Part shown: piece by piece, positions 42,895 through 59,931 of the stretch
Layout: each line of letters starts with the position of its first letter
Numbering within the stretch: the stretch's first letter is position 1
NCBI RefSeq assembly: GCF_000016165.1
Contig: NC_009253.1
Location: forward strand, 654,332-718,331
Source: Desulforamulus reducens MI-1
GTDB lineage: Bacteria; Bacillota; Desulfotomaculia; Desulfotomaculales; Desulfotomaculaceae
DNA: 64,000 nucleotides
Direction of reading: 5' to 3'
Translations under genes and position numbers: made by a program
The notes under the pieces: model-generated
The model's database searches: none
Seen by the model: the letters and a program-made list of their open reading frames with translations, nothing else
What the model was told of the DNA's origin: nothing

Positions 42895-42994
42895 AATAAA
42901 ACCTCCTTTTTAAAAACTATTGTTTCCTATCTGGAATAAACTAAACAAAAAACCTTGCTTTGACCTAAAAGGACAATTATAATTAAAATGACAC

Positions 42995-43009
42995 TGATAA
43001 CCATTATCT
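42995..43009 (+). promoter_or_regulatory. Fur-box-like palindrome before feoA
   Basis: TGATAACCATTATCT matches the TGATAATNATTATCA consensus with two differences. It lies 26 bases before the feoA ATG, as expected for iron repression of feoAB. Confidence 0.6.
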
Positions 43010-43035
43010 ATAATAGGGAATTCGGAGGTAAAACG

Positions 43036-43257
43036 ATGACTCTAGATAAATGCAAAAGAGGACAAAGGCTTAAGATTATGAATATCCCCAATGAAATTAT
43101 CCGGTCTCAGGCAATTCGTTTCGGCATTTCTGAAGGGGCCATTGTTACTTGTGAAGAGGTGGTTCCCGCGGGACCTGTGGTGGTAGGTATGTTTAAACAG
43201 CAAATTGCCATTGGTAGGCAGTTAGCTAGAGGTATCACAGTTCAACCAGTTAGCTAA
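43036..43257 (+). CDS. feoA: ferrous iron transport protein FeoA (first copy)
   Basis: Small SH3-like protein of 73 residues that supports the FeoB iron channel in the cytoplasm. The family pattern is clear: RGQRLKIMNIPNE, SQAIRFGISEGAIVTC and QQIAIGRQLA. The ATG at 43036 has TCGGAGG upstream; an in-frame start at 42988 lies before the Fur box and is rejected. feoB follows after 35 bases. Confidence 0.93.
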   Translation: MTLDKCKRGQRLKIMNIPNEIIRSQAIRFGISEGAIVTCEEVVPAGPVVVGMFKQQIAIGRQLARGITVQPVS

Positions 43258-43292
43258 TAAACAACAATATAAGAGCCAAGAGGTTGTAAATA

Positions 43293-45245
43293 ATGAATAA
43301 CAAAGAGTCTAGCTCCCCAAGGATTACTGGGAAAAATATTGTTCTGGTGGGTAATCCTAATGTGGGGAAGTCCGTTATTTTTAATTATCTTACCGGAAGC
43401 TATGTGGACGTGGCAAACTTTCCGGGTACAACAAACAATGTAATATGTGGGCGTTTTGGCCAGGATGCCGTCACAGATACCCCGGGAATTTATGGAATTT
43501 CCTCTTTTAATGAGGAAGAAAAAATTACCCGGGATATTGTTTTGCATGGGGATGTGCTTATTAACATTGTAGATGCTGTACATTTGGAAAGAGACTTGTT
43601 TTTGACCCAGCAACTTATTGATACAGGTCTCCCTGTACTGGTTATGCTGAATATGATTGATGAGGCAGAGCACCAAGGAATCAAAATTGATATTGAGGTG
43701 TTAAAGGAACTTCTAGGGGTTCCGATAATAGCTACGGTGGCTGTGGAAGGAAAGGGTTTGGATCAGGTTAGGGATGCCATTGAAGGGGCCCAGATGGGCC
43801 GTGTTTTACCAGTGGTTAAGGAAAAATTGGCAGAATTGCCAGATACTATTTCTCGACCTGAAAAGTTACTTGCTTTGGAAGGAGATATTGCTGTTTCGGA
43901 AAGAAACGGAGTCACCCCAGGCCCATACAGAACGCTTTTTTATAAAGAAAGACGCCAATGGGTAAATCAATTAGTTGCTATGTCAGTAAAAGAAGCAGGT
44001 CCTCGGGAGGCTTGGGGGGCCAGGCTAAGCCGCTGGATGATTCAACCGGCCACAGGAATCCCCCTGTTGATTGCCACTCTGTGGGTGCTCTATCAGCTTA
44101 TCGGTGTTTTTGTTGCCCAAACAGTGGTGGAATTTACTGAAGGGGTTATTATGGGAGAATATTTCCAACCTGCTGCCAAAGCACTGGTAGGAACGATGGT
44201 TGCTCCAGATACAGCTCTCAGTGAGATACTGGTGGGGCAGTTTGGGGTGATTACCATGACCGTTACTTACTTAATTGGACTTTTGCTACCTTTGGTTCTG
44301 GGATTTAATCTTGTACTGGCCTTGTTGGAAGACACAGGTTATTTACCCAGAATTGCCATCCTGTTGGATCGGGTATTAACTTTCTTTGGATTAAATGGCC
44401 AGGCTGTTATTCCGCTGGTACTGGGGTTTGGCTGTGTAACAATGGCTTTAATGTCAACACGATTACTGGGTTCTGAACGGGAACGGCGTATTGCAACCAT
44501 TATTTTGGCATTGACAGTACCCTGTTCAGCTCAATTGGCAATCATCGCCACCATGCTGGCTGGGCTTGGGCCAGGCTTTGCAATTGTTTATGGCATATTA
44601 ATCCTGAGTGTTTTCATCGCCGGAGGCGTATTATTGGACAGATTTATACCCGGTAACTCCTCCTCCCTTTGGATTGATCTGCCCCCCCTGCGGTTGCCCC
44701 GCATGGACAACGTGCTGCAGAAAACCTGGGGTAAAAGCAAGGAGTTTATTACCGAAGCTGCCCCTTTGTTTGCATTGGGAGCTTTGTTCCTTGGCTTGCT
44801 AGAGGTGACAGGCACCTTGGATTCCATTGAGAATGCCTTGGTCCCCCTAACAGTAAGCTGGTTGGGTTTGCCTAAGGAAGCAGCCAGTGGTTTTATTATG
44901 GGAGTCATACGCCGGGAATTCGGTACCGCGGGACTATTTTCTTTCCCCATGTCGGATATGCAAAAATTAATAGCACTGACCACCATTACATTATTTGTTC
45001 CCTGCATCGCTTCGGCAATGGTTATTTTTAAAGAGCGGGGATGGAAAGAAGGAACAGCCATTTGGATCGGAGTTGTTATGGTAGCATTTTTCGTGGGTGG
45101 ATTGGCAAATCAGTTACTAAAATTTTTTGCCATTTATTTTTCTACAGCGGCTCCCTTGACTATGCTGGCAGGCTCTATTATAGTAGGACTTGTTTTAATA
45201 TTAGGACTTAGTTGGGTTACTCCCGGATTTTCCAGGAGCAGGTGA
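43293..45245 (+). CDS. feoB: ferrous iron transporter FeoB (first copy)
   Basis: Membrane Fe(II) transporter of 650 residues with an N-terminal G-protein domain: GNPNVGKS at about 20-27, DTPGIYG, NMID. A helical GDI domain is followed by a membrane domain with two Gate regions (VIPLVLGFGCVTMA and the GVIRREFGTAG segment). It ends normally at FSRSR, with no cysteine-rich tail. The dacA-type gene begins nine bases later, so they may be cotranscribed. Confidence 0.95.
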   Translation: MNNKESSSPRITGKNIVLVGNPNVGKSVIFNYLTGSYVDVANFPGTTNNVICGRFGQDAVTDTPGIYGISSFNEEEKITRDIVLHGDVLINIVDAVHLERDLFLTQQLIDTGLPVLVMLNMIDEAEHQGIKIDIEVLKELLGVPIIATVAVEGKGLDQVRDAIEGAQMGRVLPVVKEKLAELPDTISRPEKLLALEGDIAVSERNGVTPGPYRTLFYKERRQWVNQLVAMSVKEAGPREAWGARLSRWMIQPATGIPLLIATLWVLYQLIGVFVAQTVVEFTEGVIMGEYFQPAAKALVGTMVAPDTALSEILVGQFGVITMTVTYLIGLLLPLVLGFNLVLALLEDTGYLPRIAILLDRVLTFFGLNGQAVIPLVLGFGCVTMALMSTRLLGSERERRIATIILALTVPCSAQLAIIATMLAGLGPGFAIVYGILILSVFIAGGVLLDRFIPGNSSSLWIDLPPLRLPRMDNVLQKTWGKSKEFITEAAPLFALGALFLGLLEVTGTLDSIENALVPLTVSWLGLPKEAASGFIMGVIRREFGTAGLFSFPMSDMQKLIALTTITLFVPCIASAMVIFKERGWKEGTAIWIGVVMVAFFVGGLANQLLKFFAIYFSTAAPLTMLAGSIIVGLVLILGLSWVTPGFSRSR

Positions 45246-45254
45246 TAAAATATA

Positions 45255-46487
45255 ATGTATAGTCGCTTAATCAACATTTTAATAGTGTTGCTACTCCTAA
45301 CCGTTACTTCACAAGCCTGGGCAGGGCAACCCCAAATCACAGGGGAGACCGCCGTTCTGCTGGATGCTAAATCAGGTGCAGTTTTGTATGGCAAGGAGGA
45401 ACACAAGAGAATGTATCCTGCCAGCACCACAAAGGTATTGACAGCCCTAGTGGCGCTGGAACACGCCCGGATGACAGATCGGGTGACTATTGGTCCTAAC
45501 CCTAGCAAGGCCGGCGGAACCTCCATCTGGCTGCAAGAGGGAGAACAATTAGCCATGCAGGAACTTCTTTATGCTCTAATGTTAAACTCTGCCAATGATG
45601 CAGGAGTTGCCATTGCAGAACATGTGGCAGGTTCGGTAGGAAAATTCGCAGCCATGTCCAATGAAAGGGCTAGAGAACTAGGGGCTAATAACACTCATTT
45701 TGTGAACCCCCATGGGATGCCGAATAAAGATCATTATTCCACTGCCTATGATCTTGCCCTCATAGGCCAAGCGGCATTAAAAAATAAAGACCTTAGAAAA
45801 ATATTGACAACCATTCACCATGAAATACCCAGGGCCGACCCGGAGGCTCAAAAATATTTATTTAATCATAACAAGCTTCTGTGGAGTAAGACCTATGGCT
45901 ATAAAGGTGCAACGGGGCTGAAAACCGGTTATACCGTTGAAGCTGGGCAGTGTATTATTGCTTCTGCAGAGAGAAATGGCATGGAACTAATAGCAGTGGT
46001 GTTGCGTAGTGAAGGCTTTAATTTGTGGACCGATGCAGCTAAGTTACTGGATTATGGTTTTGCAAACTTTACCAATCGACAGTTGGTGCAGGGTGGCAAA
46101 ATCATGGCAGATGTGCCAGTGAAGTATGGCAAAAGCCATGTAAAACTGCTAGCCCAAAATGACTTTTATTATACCTTTCCCAAAGAGGGAACTGTTGACC
46201 TTCATGTAATCACCGAGCCCGCAGAAGAAGCCAAAGCACCGGTTGACAAGGGCCAGGTTTTGGGGGCAGTGGTTATACAGAATGGTAAAGAGATTGTTGG
46301 AAAGGTTCCACTGGTTGCTCAGGAGACAGTTCAACGGGACTGGCAAGCCATAACTAAAACCTATTTTAAATGGATTCTACCACCGAGCTTGCTTTTACTG
46401 TGGATTCGCCGTAGGCTTTATTTAAAAAGAAAAAGGCAGCAAAGAATGGCTAGGCGCCAAAAGTATTATAATTACCCAATAGACTAA
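45255..46487 (+). CDS. D-alanyl-D-alanine carboxypeptidase (DacA/DacF type)
   Basis: Penicillin-binding protein of 410 residues that trims peptidoglycan stem peptides. A signal peptide (1 to about 23) is followed by the motifs Ser57-xx-Lys60 (ASTTK), SAN near 115 and KTG near 219. A C-terminal beta domain and a final hydrophobic helix with a basic tail anchor it to the membrane. It directly follows feoB, an unusual pairing probably without functional meaning. Confidence 0.92.
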   Translation: MYSRLINILIVLLLLTVTSQAWAGQPQITGETAVLLDAKSGAVLYGKEEHKRMYPASTTKVLTALVALEHARMTDRVTIGPNPSKAGGTSIWLQEGEQLAMQELLYALMLNSANDAGVAIAEHVAGSVGKFAAMSNERARELGANNTHFVNPHGMPNKDHYSTAYDLALIGQAALKNKDLRKILTTIHHEIPRADPEAQKYLFNHNKLLWSKTYGYKGATGLKTGYTVEAGQCIIASAERNGMELIAVVLRSEGFNLWTDAAKLLDYGFANFTNRQLVQGGKIMADVPVKYGKSHVKLLAQNDFYYTFPKEGTVDLHVITEPAEEAKAPVDKGQVLGAVVIQNGKEIVGKVPLVAQETVQRDWQAITKTYFKWILPPSLLLLWIRRRLYLKRKRQQRMARRQKYYNYPID

Positions 46488-46554
46488 GTAATGCATTGAC
46501 ACCCCACCTAAAAAGCAATATACTGGTAAAAAGTAGCCGGGTGGTGTTTTTCTT

Positions 46555-46989
46555 TTGAAGAAGATTATAACCCAGGTTGGGGAAAAACTAAGGGCCAATG
46601 AATATAAGCTAACCCCCCAACGGCAGATCATATTAGAGGTTATGTTAGAAAACAAGGATAAACACCTCAGTGCAGAAGATGTTTATATTCTTGTTAAACG
46701 AAAAGCTCCGGATATAGGTTTGGCCACAGTTTATCGAACCCTGGAGTTATTCTTGGAGCATGAAATTGTTCATAGTGTCAATTTTGGGGATGGCCGTAAA
46801 CGTTACGAATATGGCGATAGTACTGAAGGTCACCACCATCATCATGCCATTTGCCTGAGGTGCGGTAAAATACTGGAGATTAATGAAGACCTCCTTGAAG
46901 AATTGGAAAAGCAAGTTTCCAAAGATTATGGTTTTACGGTATTGGATCATGAATTAAAAATTTTTGGTCACTGCAGTGAATGTAAATAA
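46555..46989 (+). CDS. Fur-family metal regulator
   Basis: DNA-binding regulator of 144 residues with the winged helix LTPQRQIILEVMLENKDKHL and SAEDVY, and a C-terminal metal domain. The His-rich HHHHHAICLRCGK and the CSEC end give the two CxxC pairs of the structural zinc site. Whether it is Fur, PerR or Zur cannot be settled by eye. The location after feoAB and the Fur boxes in the window favour iron sensing. A TTG start is used. Confidence 0.85.
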   Translation: MKKIITQVGEKLRANEYKLTPQRQIILEVMLENKDKHLSAEDVYILVKRKAPDIGLATVYRTLELFLEHEIVHSVNFGDGRKRYEYGDSTEGHHHHHAICLRCGKILEINEDLLEELEKQVSKDYGFTVLDHELKIFGHCSECK

Positions 46990-57047: not shown

Positions 57048-57406
57048 GATTTTTCCTCCTCATAGTTAAGAAAGTTTTATGTACCAGCAGGCATTGTTAG
57101 AGACCCAAGGAATTTCACCTTTAGATCCATAGCTAGCCTAAAAAAATTATTGACATCCGTTCAAAACCATATTATAGCTATTATGAACTGATGTCAATAA
57201 ATAAAATACAAAAAAGTTAAAAAGAAGTTTAAAAAACACCCAGAATCTTATCGATAATTGTATAAAAAGCACAAGATTACTTAATGAAGAAGGGCTAGCT
57301 AAATTAAATCAGCAAAAAATATAAAGAAAAGTATGATAATTATACTACTTTTAAATCTTAATATTAAGCAAGTAGGAAGGAGGGAGATTCCTTAATATAA
57401 CTCAAA
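57048..57406. other. intergenic region between mrp and the Feo locus
   Basis: AT-rich apart from the mrp promoter palindrome described separately. No further gene is seen up to the hairpin at 57407. Confidence 0.4.
57147..57200 (-). promoter_or_regulatory. mrp promoter flanked by a 17-bp inverted repeat
   Basis: On the minus strand TTGACA (57192-57197), a 17-base spacer and TAATAT (57169-57174) make a near-ideal sigma-A promoter. The two arms (57147-57163 and 57184-57200) pair in 16 of 17 positions and cover the -35 region and the bases just downstream of -10. A repressor site is likely. A weaker plus-strand promoter could use the mirrored TTGACA. Confidence 0.65.
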
Positions 57407-57429
57407 GCCCTTGCCGTCTTGGCAAGGGC
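57407..57429 (-). terminator. hairpin after the second feo locus
   Basis: GCCCTTGCC pairs perfectly with GGCAAGGGC. It lies ten bases past the stop of the cysteine-rich frame, which places that frame inside the feoB transcript. Confidence 0.65.
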
Positions 57430-57438
57430 CTGTTTCTG

Positions 57439-57594
57439 TTACTTATGGCTGTTGCATGTTGAGCAGTTTCCAGAACAACCACCGGGGATGGGTTCACGGC
57501 AACGGGGGCAGACAAGTGTTAATAAATCAACAGGGCATCCACAGCGGGGGCAGGTTTTGCCCTGAGTGCATGTGTTTTTGGATTTTTCCTTTAT
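57439..57594 (-). CDS. nine-cysteine tail frame after feoB (start unclear)
   Basis: The codons after the feoB TAA stay open in the same frame for 51 codons, then stop at a TAA (57439-57441). They encode nine cysteines, in the order CTQGKTCPRCGC, VCPRC and CSGNCSTC, a zinc-ribbon-like layout. There is no ATG, GTG or TTG in frame; only an ATA directly after the stop, with AAAGGA after it. Options are a non-standard start, readthrough of the feoB stop, or a lost start codon. Small Cys-rich proteins are often linked to Feo systems. Confidence 0.5.
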   Translation of the reverse strand: MKEKSKNTCTQGKTCPRCGCPVDLLTLVCPRCREPIPGGCSGNCSTCNSHK

Positions 57595-59580
57595 TTAAAC
57601 CACGCCCTTTGAAGTAGAATTACTTTGTATGTTTTGCTTTTTAAACAATCTTACGCCCACAATCACCAGGGCTGTTAGAGCGATAACCACTGCCATCACG
57701 GTAAATACTTGTGCCGGTGTAGCAACTCCCAGTAGAGCGGAAAGTTGAGCAACAATACCACCAATTAAGAAGGCAATTACCCAGGTACTTACCCACATAA
57801 GGAGTGCCTCCTTCTTGTTGCGTTCCTTAAACATTACTAAAATGGAAGCAATGCAAGGAACAAAGAGGGTAATGGTAATTAAGGATATCACTGTTTGAAT
57901 GGATGTCAACGGCATACCTGCCAAGCCCGCGGCACCAAAATCTCGACGTACAATACCCATAATGAAGGCTGTGGCAGCTTCCTTGGGTAACCCTAGCCAA
58001 TTTACCGTCAAAGGAGCTAGGATGTTTTGCAAGGCAACCAGAATACCAGTAACCTGAAAGGTACTAATTATTAAAGCACCAAGAGCAAAGAGGGGGAAAG
58101 CTTCCTTTAAGAACTGATAAGATTTAATTCCAGTCTTGGTCATTACATTATGAATACGTGGCACACGTAGCGGTGGTAGATCGATTAAGAGGTCAGAAGA
58201 CTGACCGGATAATAGCGAATTCATTAAAGTACCCACAACCACTAGAACTGCAAAGATAACTAAAGAATACAGAAGTACAAACTCAGGGCCCACAGAGGCT
58301 AACATTCCAGCAATGACTCCCAATTGAGCAGAGCATGGGATCGCTAACCCCAATAGAAAAATAGCAATGCGGCGCTCCCGCTCGGAACCTAACAGACGAG
58401 TGGTAATAGTAGCCATGGTAACACAGCCCAGGCCAAGAATTAATGGAATAACAGCCCGGCCATTTAAACCAATGCTGGTGAGAAGTCTATCCACCAGGGT
58501 AGCTAGGCGGGGAAGGTAACCGGAATCTTCAAACAAGGACAGGAAAAAGTAAAATCCTATAACCAAGGGCATTAATAACCCCAGCACATAGGTAAAAGTC
58601 ATTGTAAGGAGGCCAAATTCGCCAATAAGGATCGTTCCCAAAGTGGACTGTTCACTGATAAAGTTACCAACAAAGGAACGTACAGCAGGTTCGAAGTGTC
58701 CGATCATAAGGGTTTCCTCTGTAAACCCTACAACTGTACCGGCCACAAAGACCCCAATTATCTGATACATGGTATAGAGTGCTAAAAATAGAATGGGAAT
58801 TCCGGTTAAAGGTTTGATCATCATACGGCTTAAGATATTACTGAAAGCGGTTTTTTTACTGATATCCTTGACCACATGAGTAACAATTTGGTTAACACGC
58901 TGTCTTCGCTGCAGGTAAATATCCTCCCTTTTATTTAGGGGTTCAAGACCATGACGTTCGGCAACTGTAGCATCGCCTTCCATAATCAACAGGGCTTCAC
59001 CACGGGAACCTACCCGGTTAACCAGTTTATCCATTTCTTTTTGGAGTTCTGTATCTGACTGCCCTGAACGTGCCTGCCCAATGTTTTCCTTTATTTCCTT
59101 CATGCCTTGTTTTTTAATGGCCACGGTAGGAATAACAGGTACACCTAGCAATTGGCTTAATAATTGGTTGTTTATTGTCATACCCTGTTTTTCAGCTTCA
59201 TCTACCATATTCAGGGCAATGATTACAGGAACGCCAGTATCTATAATTTGTTGGGTAAGGAATAAATCCCGTTCTAGGTAAACCGCGTTTACAACGTTAA
59301 TAACCACATCGGCTGTTAAAATAACATCCCGGGCCACCCTTTCTTCGTCATTAAAAGAAGAAATTCCATAAACCCCCGGGGTATCAATTACGACATCCCC
59401 TTGAAGAAGACCGTGGGATATCTCCAGGGTAGTACCGGGGTAATTGGATACATCCACATACATACCAGTTAAGTAATTAAAAAATACTGATTTACCAGCA
59501 TTTGGGTTGCCTGCCAAAACAATGCGCCGAGCTCCTTCGGGAATATCAATTTGAATACTGCAACCATGGCAGTGAGACAT
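57595..59580 (-). CDS. feoB: ferrous iron transporter FeoB (second copy)
   Basis: Fe(II) transporter of 661 residues. CHGC near 4-7 starts an extra N-terminal Cys pair absent from the first copy. The G domain has GNPNAGKS near 25-32, DTPGVYG and NMVD. The Gate regions AVIPLILGLGCVTMAT and MGIVRRDFGAAG are present. It is clearly a paralog of the copy at 43293 but from a distinct branch. feoA lies 36 bases upstream. A Cys-rich frame follows its stop. Confidence 0.95.
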   Translation of the reverse strand: MSHCHGCSIQIDIPEGARRIVLAGNPNAGKSVFFNYLTGMYVDVSNYPGTTLEISHGLLQGDVVIDTPGVYGISSFNDEERVARDVILTADVVINVVNAVYLERDLFLTQQIIDTGVPVIIALNMVDEAEKQGMTINNQLLSQLLGVPVIPTVAIKKQGMKEIKENIGQARSGQSDTELQKEMDKLVNRVGSRGEALLIMEGDATVAERHGLEPLNKREDIYLQRRQRVNQIVTHVVKDISKKTAFSNILSRMMIKPLTGIPILFLALYTMYQIIGVFVAGTVVGFTEETLMIGHFEPAVRSFVGNFISEQSTLGTILIGEFGLLTMTFTYVLGLLMPLVIGFYFFLSLFEDSGYLPRLATLVDRLLTSIGLNGRAVIPLILGLGCVTMATITTRLLGSERERRIAIFLLGLAIPCSAQLGVIAGMLASVGPEFVLLYSLVIFAVLVVVGTLMNSLLSGQSSDLLIDLPPLRVPRIHNVMTKTGIKSYQFLKEAFPLFALGALIISTFQVTGILVALQNILAPLTVNWLGLPKEAATAFIMGIVRRDFGAAGLAGMPLTSIQTVISLITITLFVPCIASILVMFKERNKKEALLMWVSTWVIAFLIGGIVAQLSALLGVATPAQVFTVMAVVIALTALVIVGVRLFKKQNIQSNSTSKGVV

Positions 59581-59616: not shown

Positions 59617-59835
59617 CTAATTTAGACTAATATCAATTAATCTAGCCAGTTGACGGCCAAGGGCAATTTGTTGACGGTTTTTACGAATCACAATGGGACC
59701 CGCTGGAACAACCTCTTCACAGCTAAGCCACTCTCCTTCGGCAATGCCAAAGCGAATTGCTTGGGATCGGACGTTTTCATTATGGATGTTGTTAATTTTA
59801 AAAAATTGACCTTTTTTTACACGATCAAGAGTCAT
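59617..59835 (-). CDS. feoA: ferrous iron transport protein FeoA (second copy)
   Basis: FeoA-type protein of 72 residues with KGQFFKINNIHNE, SQAIRFGIAEGE and RQQIALGRQLA. It is closely similar to the copy at 43036. The ATG at 59835 follows AAGGAG; the longer in-frame start at 59877 lies inside a Fur-like box and is rejected. Confidence 0.92.
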   Translation of the reverse strand: MTLDRVKKGQFFKINNIHNENVRSQAIRFGIAEGEWLSCEEVVPAGPIVIRKNRQQIALGRQLARLIDISLN

Positions 59836-59857
59836 AATACCACTCCTTGTCTGAATA

Positions 59858-59872
59858 TAAGAATCATTATCA
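59858..59872 (-). promoter_or_regulatory. Fur-box-like site at feoA2
   Basis: TGATAATGATTCTTA on the minus strand matches the Fur consensus well. It lies 23 bases before the feoA2 start codon. Confidence 0.6.
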
Positions 59873-59931
59873 CTCAAAGGACAAAATAAAAATGTGTTAT
59901 AGTTAAGCTAGTTATAAAATAACACATTGTT

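Follow-up and report, generated by a model that had tools for sequence, protein, structure and literature searches.

The cysteine-rich stretch that follows feoB2 in Desulforamulus reducens quite probably encodes a separate and conserved FeoB accessory protein of 50–60 residues, zinc-ribbon-like, whose translation would be started at an AUA codon from a Shine–Dalgarno sequence at the feoB stop. In relatives the stretch is a separate gene. The position of its start, its conservation, the selection acting on it and its link with one subtype of FeoB are all directly observed, and they are laid out below, followed by the case for the AUA start and by what the protein may do.

A nine-cysteine frame behind feoB2

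The window, that is, the whole stretch of 64 kb of D. reducens DNA that was analysed, contains the following features.

59617–59877, minus strand: feoA, upstream of feoB2; the frame opens at TTG, with an internal ATG 14 codons in (PF04023, E 1.1e-10).
57595–59580, minus strand: feoB2, 661 amino acids, N-terminus MSHCHGC, TAA at 57597–57595 (open reading frame; FeoB_N, Gate, FeoB_C and TIGR00437 matches).
57599–57610, minus strand: Shine–Dalgarno-like stretch AAAGGGCGTGGT, within the final feoB2 codons (predicted pairing with the 16S rRNA 3′ end, −10.3 kcal/mol).
57592–57594, minus strand: ATA, the proposed start codon, immediately 3′ of the feoB2 TAA (at the alignment position of the ATG in six relatives within the genus).
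57439–57594, minus strand, stop included: the small gene, for a 51-residue cysteine-rich zinc-ribbon-like protein (homology, conservation, purifying selection).
57499–57552, minus strand: zinc-ribbon-like core CxxC-x10-CxxC (C15, C18, C29, C32), invariant in the 23 rows of alignment A1 and in A2.
57454–57477, minus strand: CxxxCxxC motif (C40, C44, C47), conserved in alignments A1 and A2.
57405–57431, minus strand: hairpin 3′ of the small gene, a possible transcript end (−20.4 kcal/mol, z = −4.97).
43293–45245, plus strand: the other feoB copy of the window, with no small gene behind it.

The frame of the small gene runs on the minus strand from 57594 to 57442 (51 codons by ORF analysis), in the same frame as feoB2, and is closed by a TAA at 57441–57439. 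FeoB2 ends with the residues SKGVV, and the amino-acid sequence read on past its TAA is IKEKSKNTCTQGKTCPRCGCPVDLLTLVCPRCREPIPGGCSGNCSTCNSHK, with nine cysteines; the tryptic peptides predicted from it include CGCPVDLLTLVCPR and EPIPGGCSGNCSTCNSHK. A scan of all 51 codons found no ATG, GTG or TTG. When CTG, ATT, ATC and ATA are added to the list, the only in-frame candidates are codon 1 (ATA) and, within the cysteine array, codon 36 (ATC). A preliminary description of this DNA had claimed a frame of this length and cysteine content past the feoB2 TAA, with a zinc-ribbon-like pattern, no standard start codon and an end just before a hairpin. All of this is confirmed, with the frame on the minus strand and the hairpin at 57431–57405.

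None of 200 shuffles gave an equally good hairpin. The terminator scan flags it in the plus direction only, and for the region as a whole the scan shows no excess of sites over shuffles (2 versus a mean of 2.8). We infer that feoA, feoB2 and the small gene form one operon, transcribed jointly, in which the small gene comes last. The other feoB copy has nothing comparable, as had also been noted before: the next gene behind it, at 45255 and so beginning no more than 10 bases further on, encodes a D-Ala-D-Ala carboxypeptidase. Beside the carboxypeptidase gene, in the region 42988–46989 (plus strand), a feoA-like ORF before this first feoB and a Fur-like ORF after it were recognized by eye. On the minus strand, the segment 53416–57047, which adjoins the feo operon, holds a series of ATPases of the NUBPL/Mrp and MinD types (two have 4Fe-4S domains) together with two Nitro_FeMo-Co proteins, a neighbourhood of iron-sulfur or metal handling.

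A separate gene in relatives, paired with one FeoB subtype

Six of the eight other Desulforamulus genomes carry the small protein directly after feoB and with its own ATG, at 67 to 74% identity (best match E 6.6e-21), and the FeoB preceding it is 81 to 84% identical to feoB2. Six of the seven genus members have a FeoB2 of 661 codons; in the seventh it has 659. The two genus genomes that lack the small gene, G005 and G007 (the assembly of the latter is 72% complete), also lack a FeoB2-type protein, their best FeoB being 53–54% identical. One match in G007 (L023) has internal stops and no adjoining FeoB and is not counted as genuine.

In five of the six relatives, the feoB stop and the ATG of the small gene overlap by one base (TAATG or TGATG) and the two frames differ. 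In the sixth (G003, L002) the frame is shared, but the ATG lies 12 bases past the feoB stop and a further stop codon stands in the interval. Where the ATG overlaps the feoB stop, as it does in most of the sampled genus relatives, ribosomes ending feoB could restart there on the small gene. The ATA of D. reducens aligns with the ATG of all six relatives. From this codon to the first CPRC the alignment is gapless in five of them and has one single-residue gap in the sixth, and all nine cysteine columns hold cysteine in the seven genus sequences, which, with the matches in relatives, shows the frame to be no product of chance. Set against TAATG or TGATG, the D. reducens junction, TAA-ATA, differs by a one-base shift and by the change of ATG to ATA. 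It follows from the shift that the small gene stands in the feoB frame by accident.

A search profile of the small protein, built from 23 members, finds matches at E ≤ 0.001 in 50 of the 113 genomes of the class and in 114 of 398 genomes drawn evenly from the phylum, where the weak end of the match list consists of long, different proteins. There are 85 phylum matches with E < 2e-6, D. reducens included. The longest open frame among them has 357 codons and FeoB about 660, so none of the 85 is a FeoB fusion. Fifty-three distinct small-gene loci have a profile match, counting one (L093) from a Bacillota MAG outside the phylum survey; the weak loci L026–L029 are left out of the counts, and L094 (39% identity) was not matched by the profile at E 1e-4. 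FeoB lies upstream in 52 of the 53, and fusions occur in none. Since the loci were retrieved by way of the small protein and not of FeoB, the linkage is not built into the sample. The frame offset between feoB and the small gene is 0, 1 and 2 in 13, 19 and 20 of the 52 loci, respectively. A start candidate is present in 52 of the 53 loci (ATG in 41, GTG in 7, TTG in 4), and the exception is D. reducens. The start picker is a rule of thumb that takes any ATG, GTG or TTG before the first CxxC, and by its choices the gap from feoB to the small gene is up to 190 bases. At L020 it chose an implausible, far-upstream GTG (gap −205), and inspection by eye favours a GTG that overlaps the feoB stop. In L093, as in D. 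reducens, the small gene is in frame after the FeoB stop, a weak row because its TTG candidate is 114 bases away and has no Shine–Dalgarno match in the scan.

The FeoB2 subtype, taken as at least 58% identity to feoB2, a cut set after the gap between 58% and 55% was seen, is present in 53 of the 113 class genomes; the remaining FeoB matches are 55% identical or less (search threshold E 1e-120, at which fragments may be missed). The small gene is found in 49 of these 53 genomes versus one weak match in the 60 others. That match, in G056 (E 7.9e-4, in a genome without the FeoB2 type), is not counted as genuine. By comparison of the two lists, the small gene stands beside FeoB2 on one contig in 47 of the 49. 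In G036, it lies amid unrelated genes with its own AGGAGG and ATG, and FeoB2 is on another contig. In G077, the two are again on different contigs, with no FeoB within 4 kb of the small gene and no small gene behind FeoB2. The four FeoB2-type genomes without the small gene (G075, G086, G088 and G012) have none in the 400 bases behind FeoB. Given these four of 53 and the two of 49 in which the gene is apart from feoB, the pairing is not strict. The small gene is an independent gene and not an extension of FeoB.

Three observations on single loci may be added. Both detached copies (L136, G036:C36, ~4159; L149, G077:C19, ~1722) may adjoin a similar methyltransferase-like gene, as judged by eye. 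The 816-codon FeoB frame of G088 was considered as a fusion and ruled out, its extension being N-terminal. In L148 (G013:C148), the FeoB2 frame is broken by an early stop near the N-terminus, through decay or an assembly error.

The subtype also has a sequence mark. Of 30 FeoB proteins from small-gene genomes, 29 have a CH or HH pair, often HCH, a short way ahead of the GTPase P-loop; the 30 are only those retrieved at full length, and the motif was picked after a first look. The pair is found in three of the four FeoB2-type proteins without the small gene and in none of the eight FeoB1-type proteins of the genus. The positions examined were 59580–59480 (minus strand) of the window and the loci L030–L036, L093 and L120–L147.

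The preliminary description had offered two readings. One was a restart at ATA. In the other, readthrough of the feoB2 TAA, the cell would make FeoB in two lengths, the longer one ending in the cysteine tail. Readthrough draws on the frame that stays open past the TAA, on the conserved cysteines and on the 13 of 52 loci, D. reducens included, in which the small gene is in the feoB frame. It is nevertheless very improbable, since 39 of the 52 loci are out of frame, no fusion appears in the 85 matches or the 53 loci, and two genomes have the small gene apart from feoB. Moreover, a separate ATG-started gene in another frame, which the description had itself named beforehand as the finding that would tell against a FeoB tail, is what five of the six same-genus relatives have. 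The tail is not borne out, with none of the 85 matches in a frame long enough to hold it. The restart at ATA, which coincides with the ATG of the relatives and is preceded by a Shine–Dalgarno match, is the better half of that proposal.

Selection and a probable initiation at AUA

A codon model was fitted to 49 codons of the seven genus sequences, excluding the start codon, on branch lengths taken from feoB by scaling. It gives a dN/dS of about 0.13 on the D. reducens branch and 0.16 on the other branches. A dN/dS of 1 on the D. reducens branch is rejected with 2ΔlnL of 37 in the scaled fit and 22 with free lengths; the scaled fit is preferred because the free-length fit ran to the length bound. 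Selection has maintained the small protein for most of the D. reducens branch. That branch is terminal, long and saturated, so that a start lost only very recently would escape notice. It could be, then, that loss of the start codon has only now turned the small gene into an untranslated pseudogene. We consider this improbable. ATA is weak as a start, and four of the 53 FeoB2-type genomes live without the gene, but the D. reducens copy has kept its nine cysteines, its open frame and a low dN/dS, and the Shine–Dalgarno stretch before it has been kept as well.

The 24 bases before the ATA form a duplex of −10.3 kcal/mol with the 16S rRNA end, and the corresponding values before the ATG in five of the six relatives are −11.8, −11.2, −11.2, −9.7 and −6.7, all computed with an assumed sequence for the 16S rRNA end. 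An equally strong site precedes 80 of the 2848 ATA triplets of the window (2.8%), and for this reason the match is suggestive only. At the small gene of D. reducens, the two things are present together, an AUA at the conserved start position and a Shine–Dalgarno match. A second gene of D. reducens, infC (L140, G000:C1, ~1754689), likewise lacks ATG, GTG and TTG throughout its first 20 codons; it reads GGAGGTGA, then ATA TAT ATT, with ATA and ATT as the available starts.

Could the true codon at 57594–57592 be ATG? In that case the gene would be an ordinary one, and the ATA would have arisen as an error in sequencing or assembly or else be peculiar to the culture that was sequenced. ATA is one base from the ATG of the relatives, a candidate start of the usual kind is present at each of the 52 other distinct loci, and the D. 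reducens junction is known from one assembly. On the other hand, the genome is a single contig of 3,608,104 bases, 100% complete by the tool's estimate, and a non-AUG start is plausible in view of the Shine–Dalgarno match and of the start of infC, points that weigh against an error without being decisive. We give an erroneous or private ATA a small chance.

The simplest account is a restart at AUA by ribosomes ending feoB at the adjacent base. In D. reducens, initiation would most likely still occur at AUA with a reduced yield, and it would be aided by the strong, start-proximal Shine–Dalgarno sequence and by the supply of ribosomes just released from feoB. The main text of the proteomics paper PMC4759654 holds no Feo data, both matches to "Feo" being the column label "Feox".

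A precedent is found in Staphylococcus aureus, for which the available part of the source reports that AUA starts infC, ccpN and citZ and that three of four such starts have an extended Shine–Dalgarno sequence (PMC13009471). According to the same text, in poor medium reporters of ccpN and citZ (AUA) and of cvfC1 (AUU) yielded about 10% of what AUG did, and the ccpN AUA reporter reached up to 30% in rich medium (PMC13009471). As far as that text goes, the S. aureus AUA genes and the D. reducens small gene share an AUA with a strong Shine–Dalgarno sequence close to the start, and the low yield of the former has its counterpart in the reduced yield proposed here. The S. aureus starts, however, were shown by ribosome profiling, and those of ccpN and citZ also by reporters, whereas the D. 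reducens AUA would be the start at one of 53 loci. A start of this kind, which is likely to be a natural one, is invisible to gene finders limited to ATG, GTG and TTG.

The protein family and known systems

The product, of about 51 residues, is expected to be cytosolic and a protein in its own right. It combines a CxxxCxxC motif with a zinc-ribbon-like core that reads CPxC...CPRC. No membrane-helix-like stretch was found in the 23 members of A1 and the 23 of A2 (best 19-residue Kyte–Doolittle mean ≤1.04, with none reaching 1.6). In the family, CxxC-x10-12-CxRC is followed by C-x3-C-x2-C. Across the 23 rows of A1, C15, C18, C29, R31, C32, C44 and C47 are invariant, and C40 is kept in at least 90%; C40, C44 and C47 are all invariant in A2. 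Both CxxC knuckles of a zinc ribbon are present (C15, C18, C29 and C32 in 23 of 23 rows). AlphaFold models the protein with low confidence (mean pLDDT 60.9), and the assignment of a zinc-ribbon-like fold is therefore based on the cysteine pattern. A profile search of solved structures returned generic zinc-binding proteins, through weak or repeated single-knuckle matches.

Apart from a single zinc-finger match at chance level (E 0.11), searches of Pfam and NCBIfam returned nothing for the D. reducens protein. Among the 23 members, weak matches to Zn_Ribbon_1 occur in 11 and to DZR in 10 (among the first 25 families listed), with best E-values of 0.001 and 0.0046, respectively, among the matches listed. 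No description of the family was found in the literature searched, which included the available parts of PMC8749426 and PMC8980893.

Being conserved, under selection, provided with its own start sites and closely tied in occurrence to one FeoB subtype, the small family is a testable candidate for a missing Feo component in the whole phylum. As to function, the likeliest candidate is a metal-binding or redox-sensing accessory of the FeoB2 subtype, analogous to FeoC in its place, a tentative reading that is nevertheless rather less likely to be right than wrong. In its fullest form the proposal is that an unnamed, phylum-wide, zinc-ribbon-like family would be the dedicated partner of FeoB2 (the FeoB with the N-terminal CH or HH pair, often HCH), using its two cysteine motifs on the cytosolic side to take over or sense iron, as a separately evolved FeoC analogue, with the output in D. 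reducens lowered by the AUA start and, through that start, perhaps tied to the activity of initiation factor 3. Taken jointly, these parts make a possible but doubtful whole. What should be of lasting interest is the unnamed FeoB2-linked family together with a likely natural AUA start.

Short, cysteine-rich, feoB-linked ORFs of the PF12669 type are described for Firmicutes and Bacteroidetes, and whether such ORFs are translated is called unanswered, in the part of the review available (PMC8749426). The D. reducens genome has no PF12669 match at E 0.001, and among the listed matches of the 113 class genomes (E up to 0.1) none falls on the place of the small gene; those over the cut-off, in eight class genomes, are at other places.

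The generic zinc ribbons Zn_Ribbon_1 and DZR have, like the small protein, CxxC pairs about ten residues apart. The small protein differs from them by its extra conserved CxxxCxxC, and the D. reducens copy matches neither. FeoC is the third protein of the gammaproteobacterial feoABC operons, and the small gene likewise lies directly downstream of feoAB on the same strand. FeoC is a winged-helix protein, and the small protein is unlike it in having a core with the CxxC/CxxC zinc-ribbon pattern. The D. reducens protein gives no PF09012 match at E 1, and no PF09012 match listed for the 113 class genomes (E up to 0.1) is at the small-gene place, as checked by eye. FeoC (PF09012) is described, in the available part of the review, as small, encoded directly after feoAB and in most cases provided with a cysteine motif, and the role of an iron sensor is one of several proposed for it (PMC8749426). 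Judged by sequence, the small protein does not belong to FeoC; it is by position that it resembles it.
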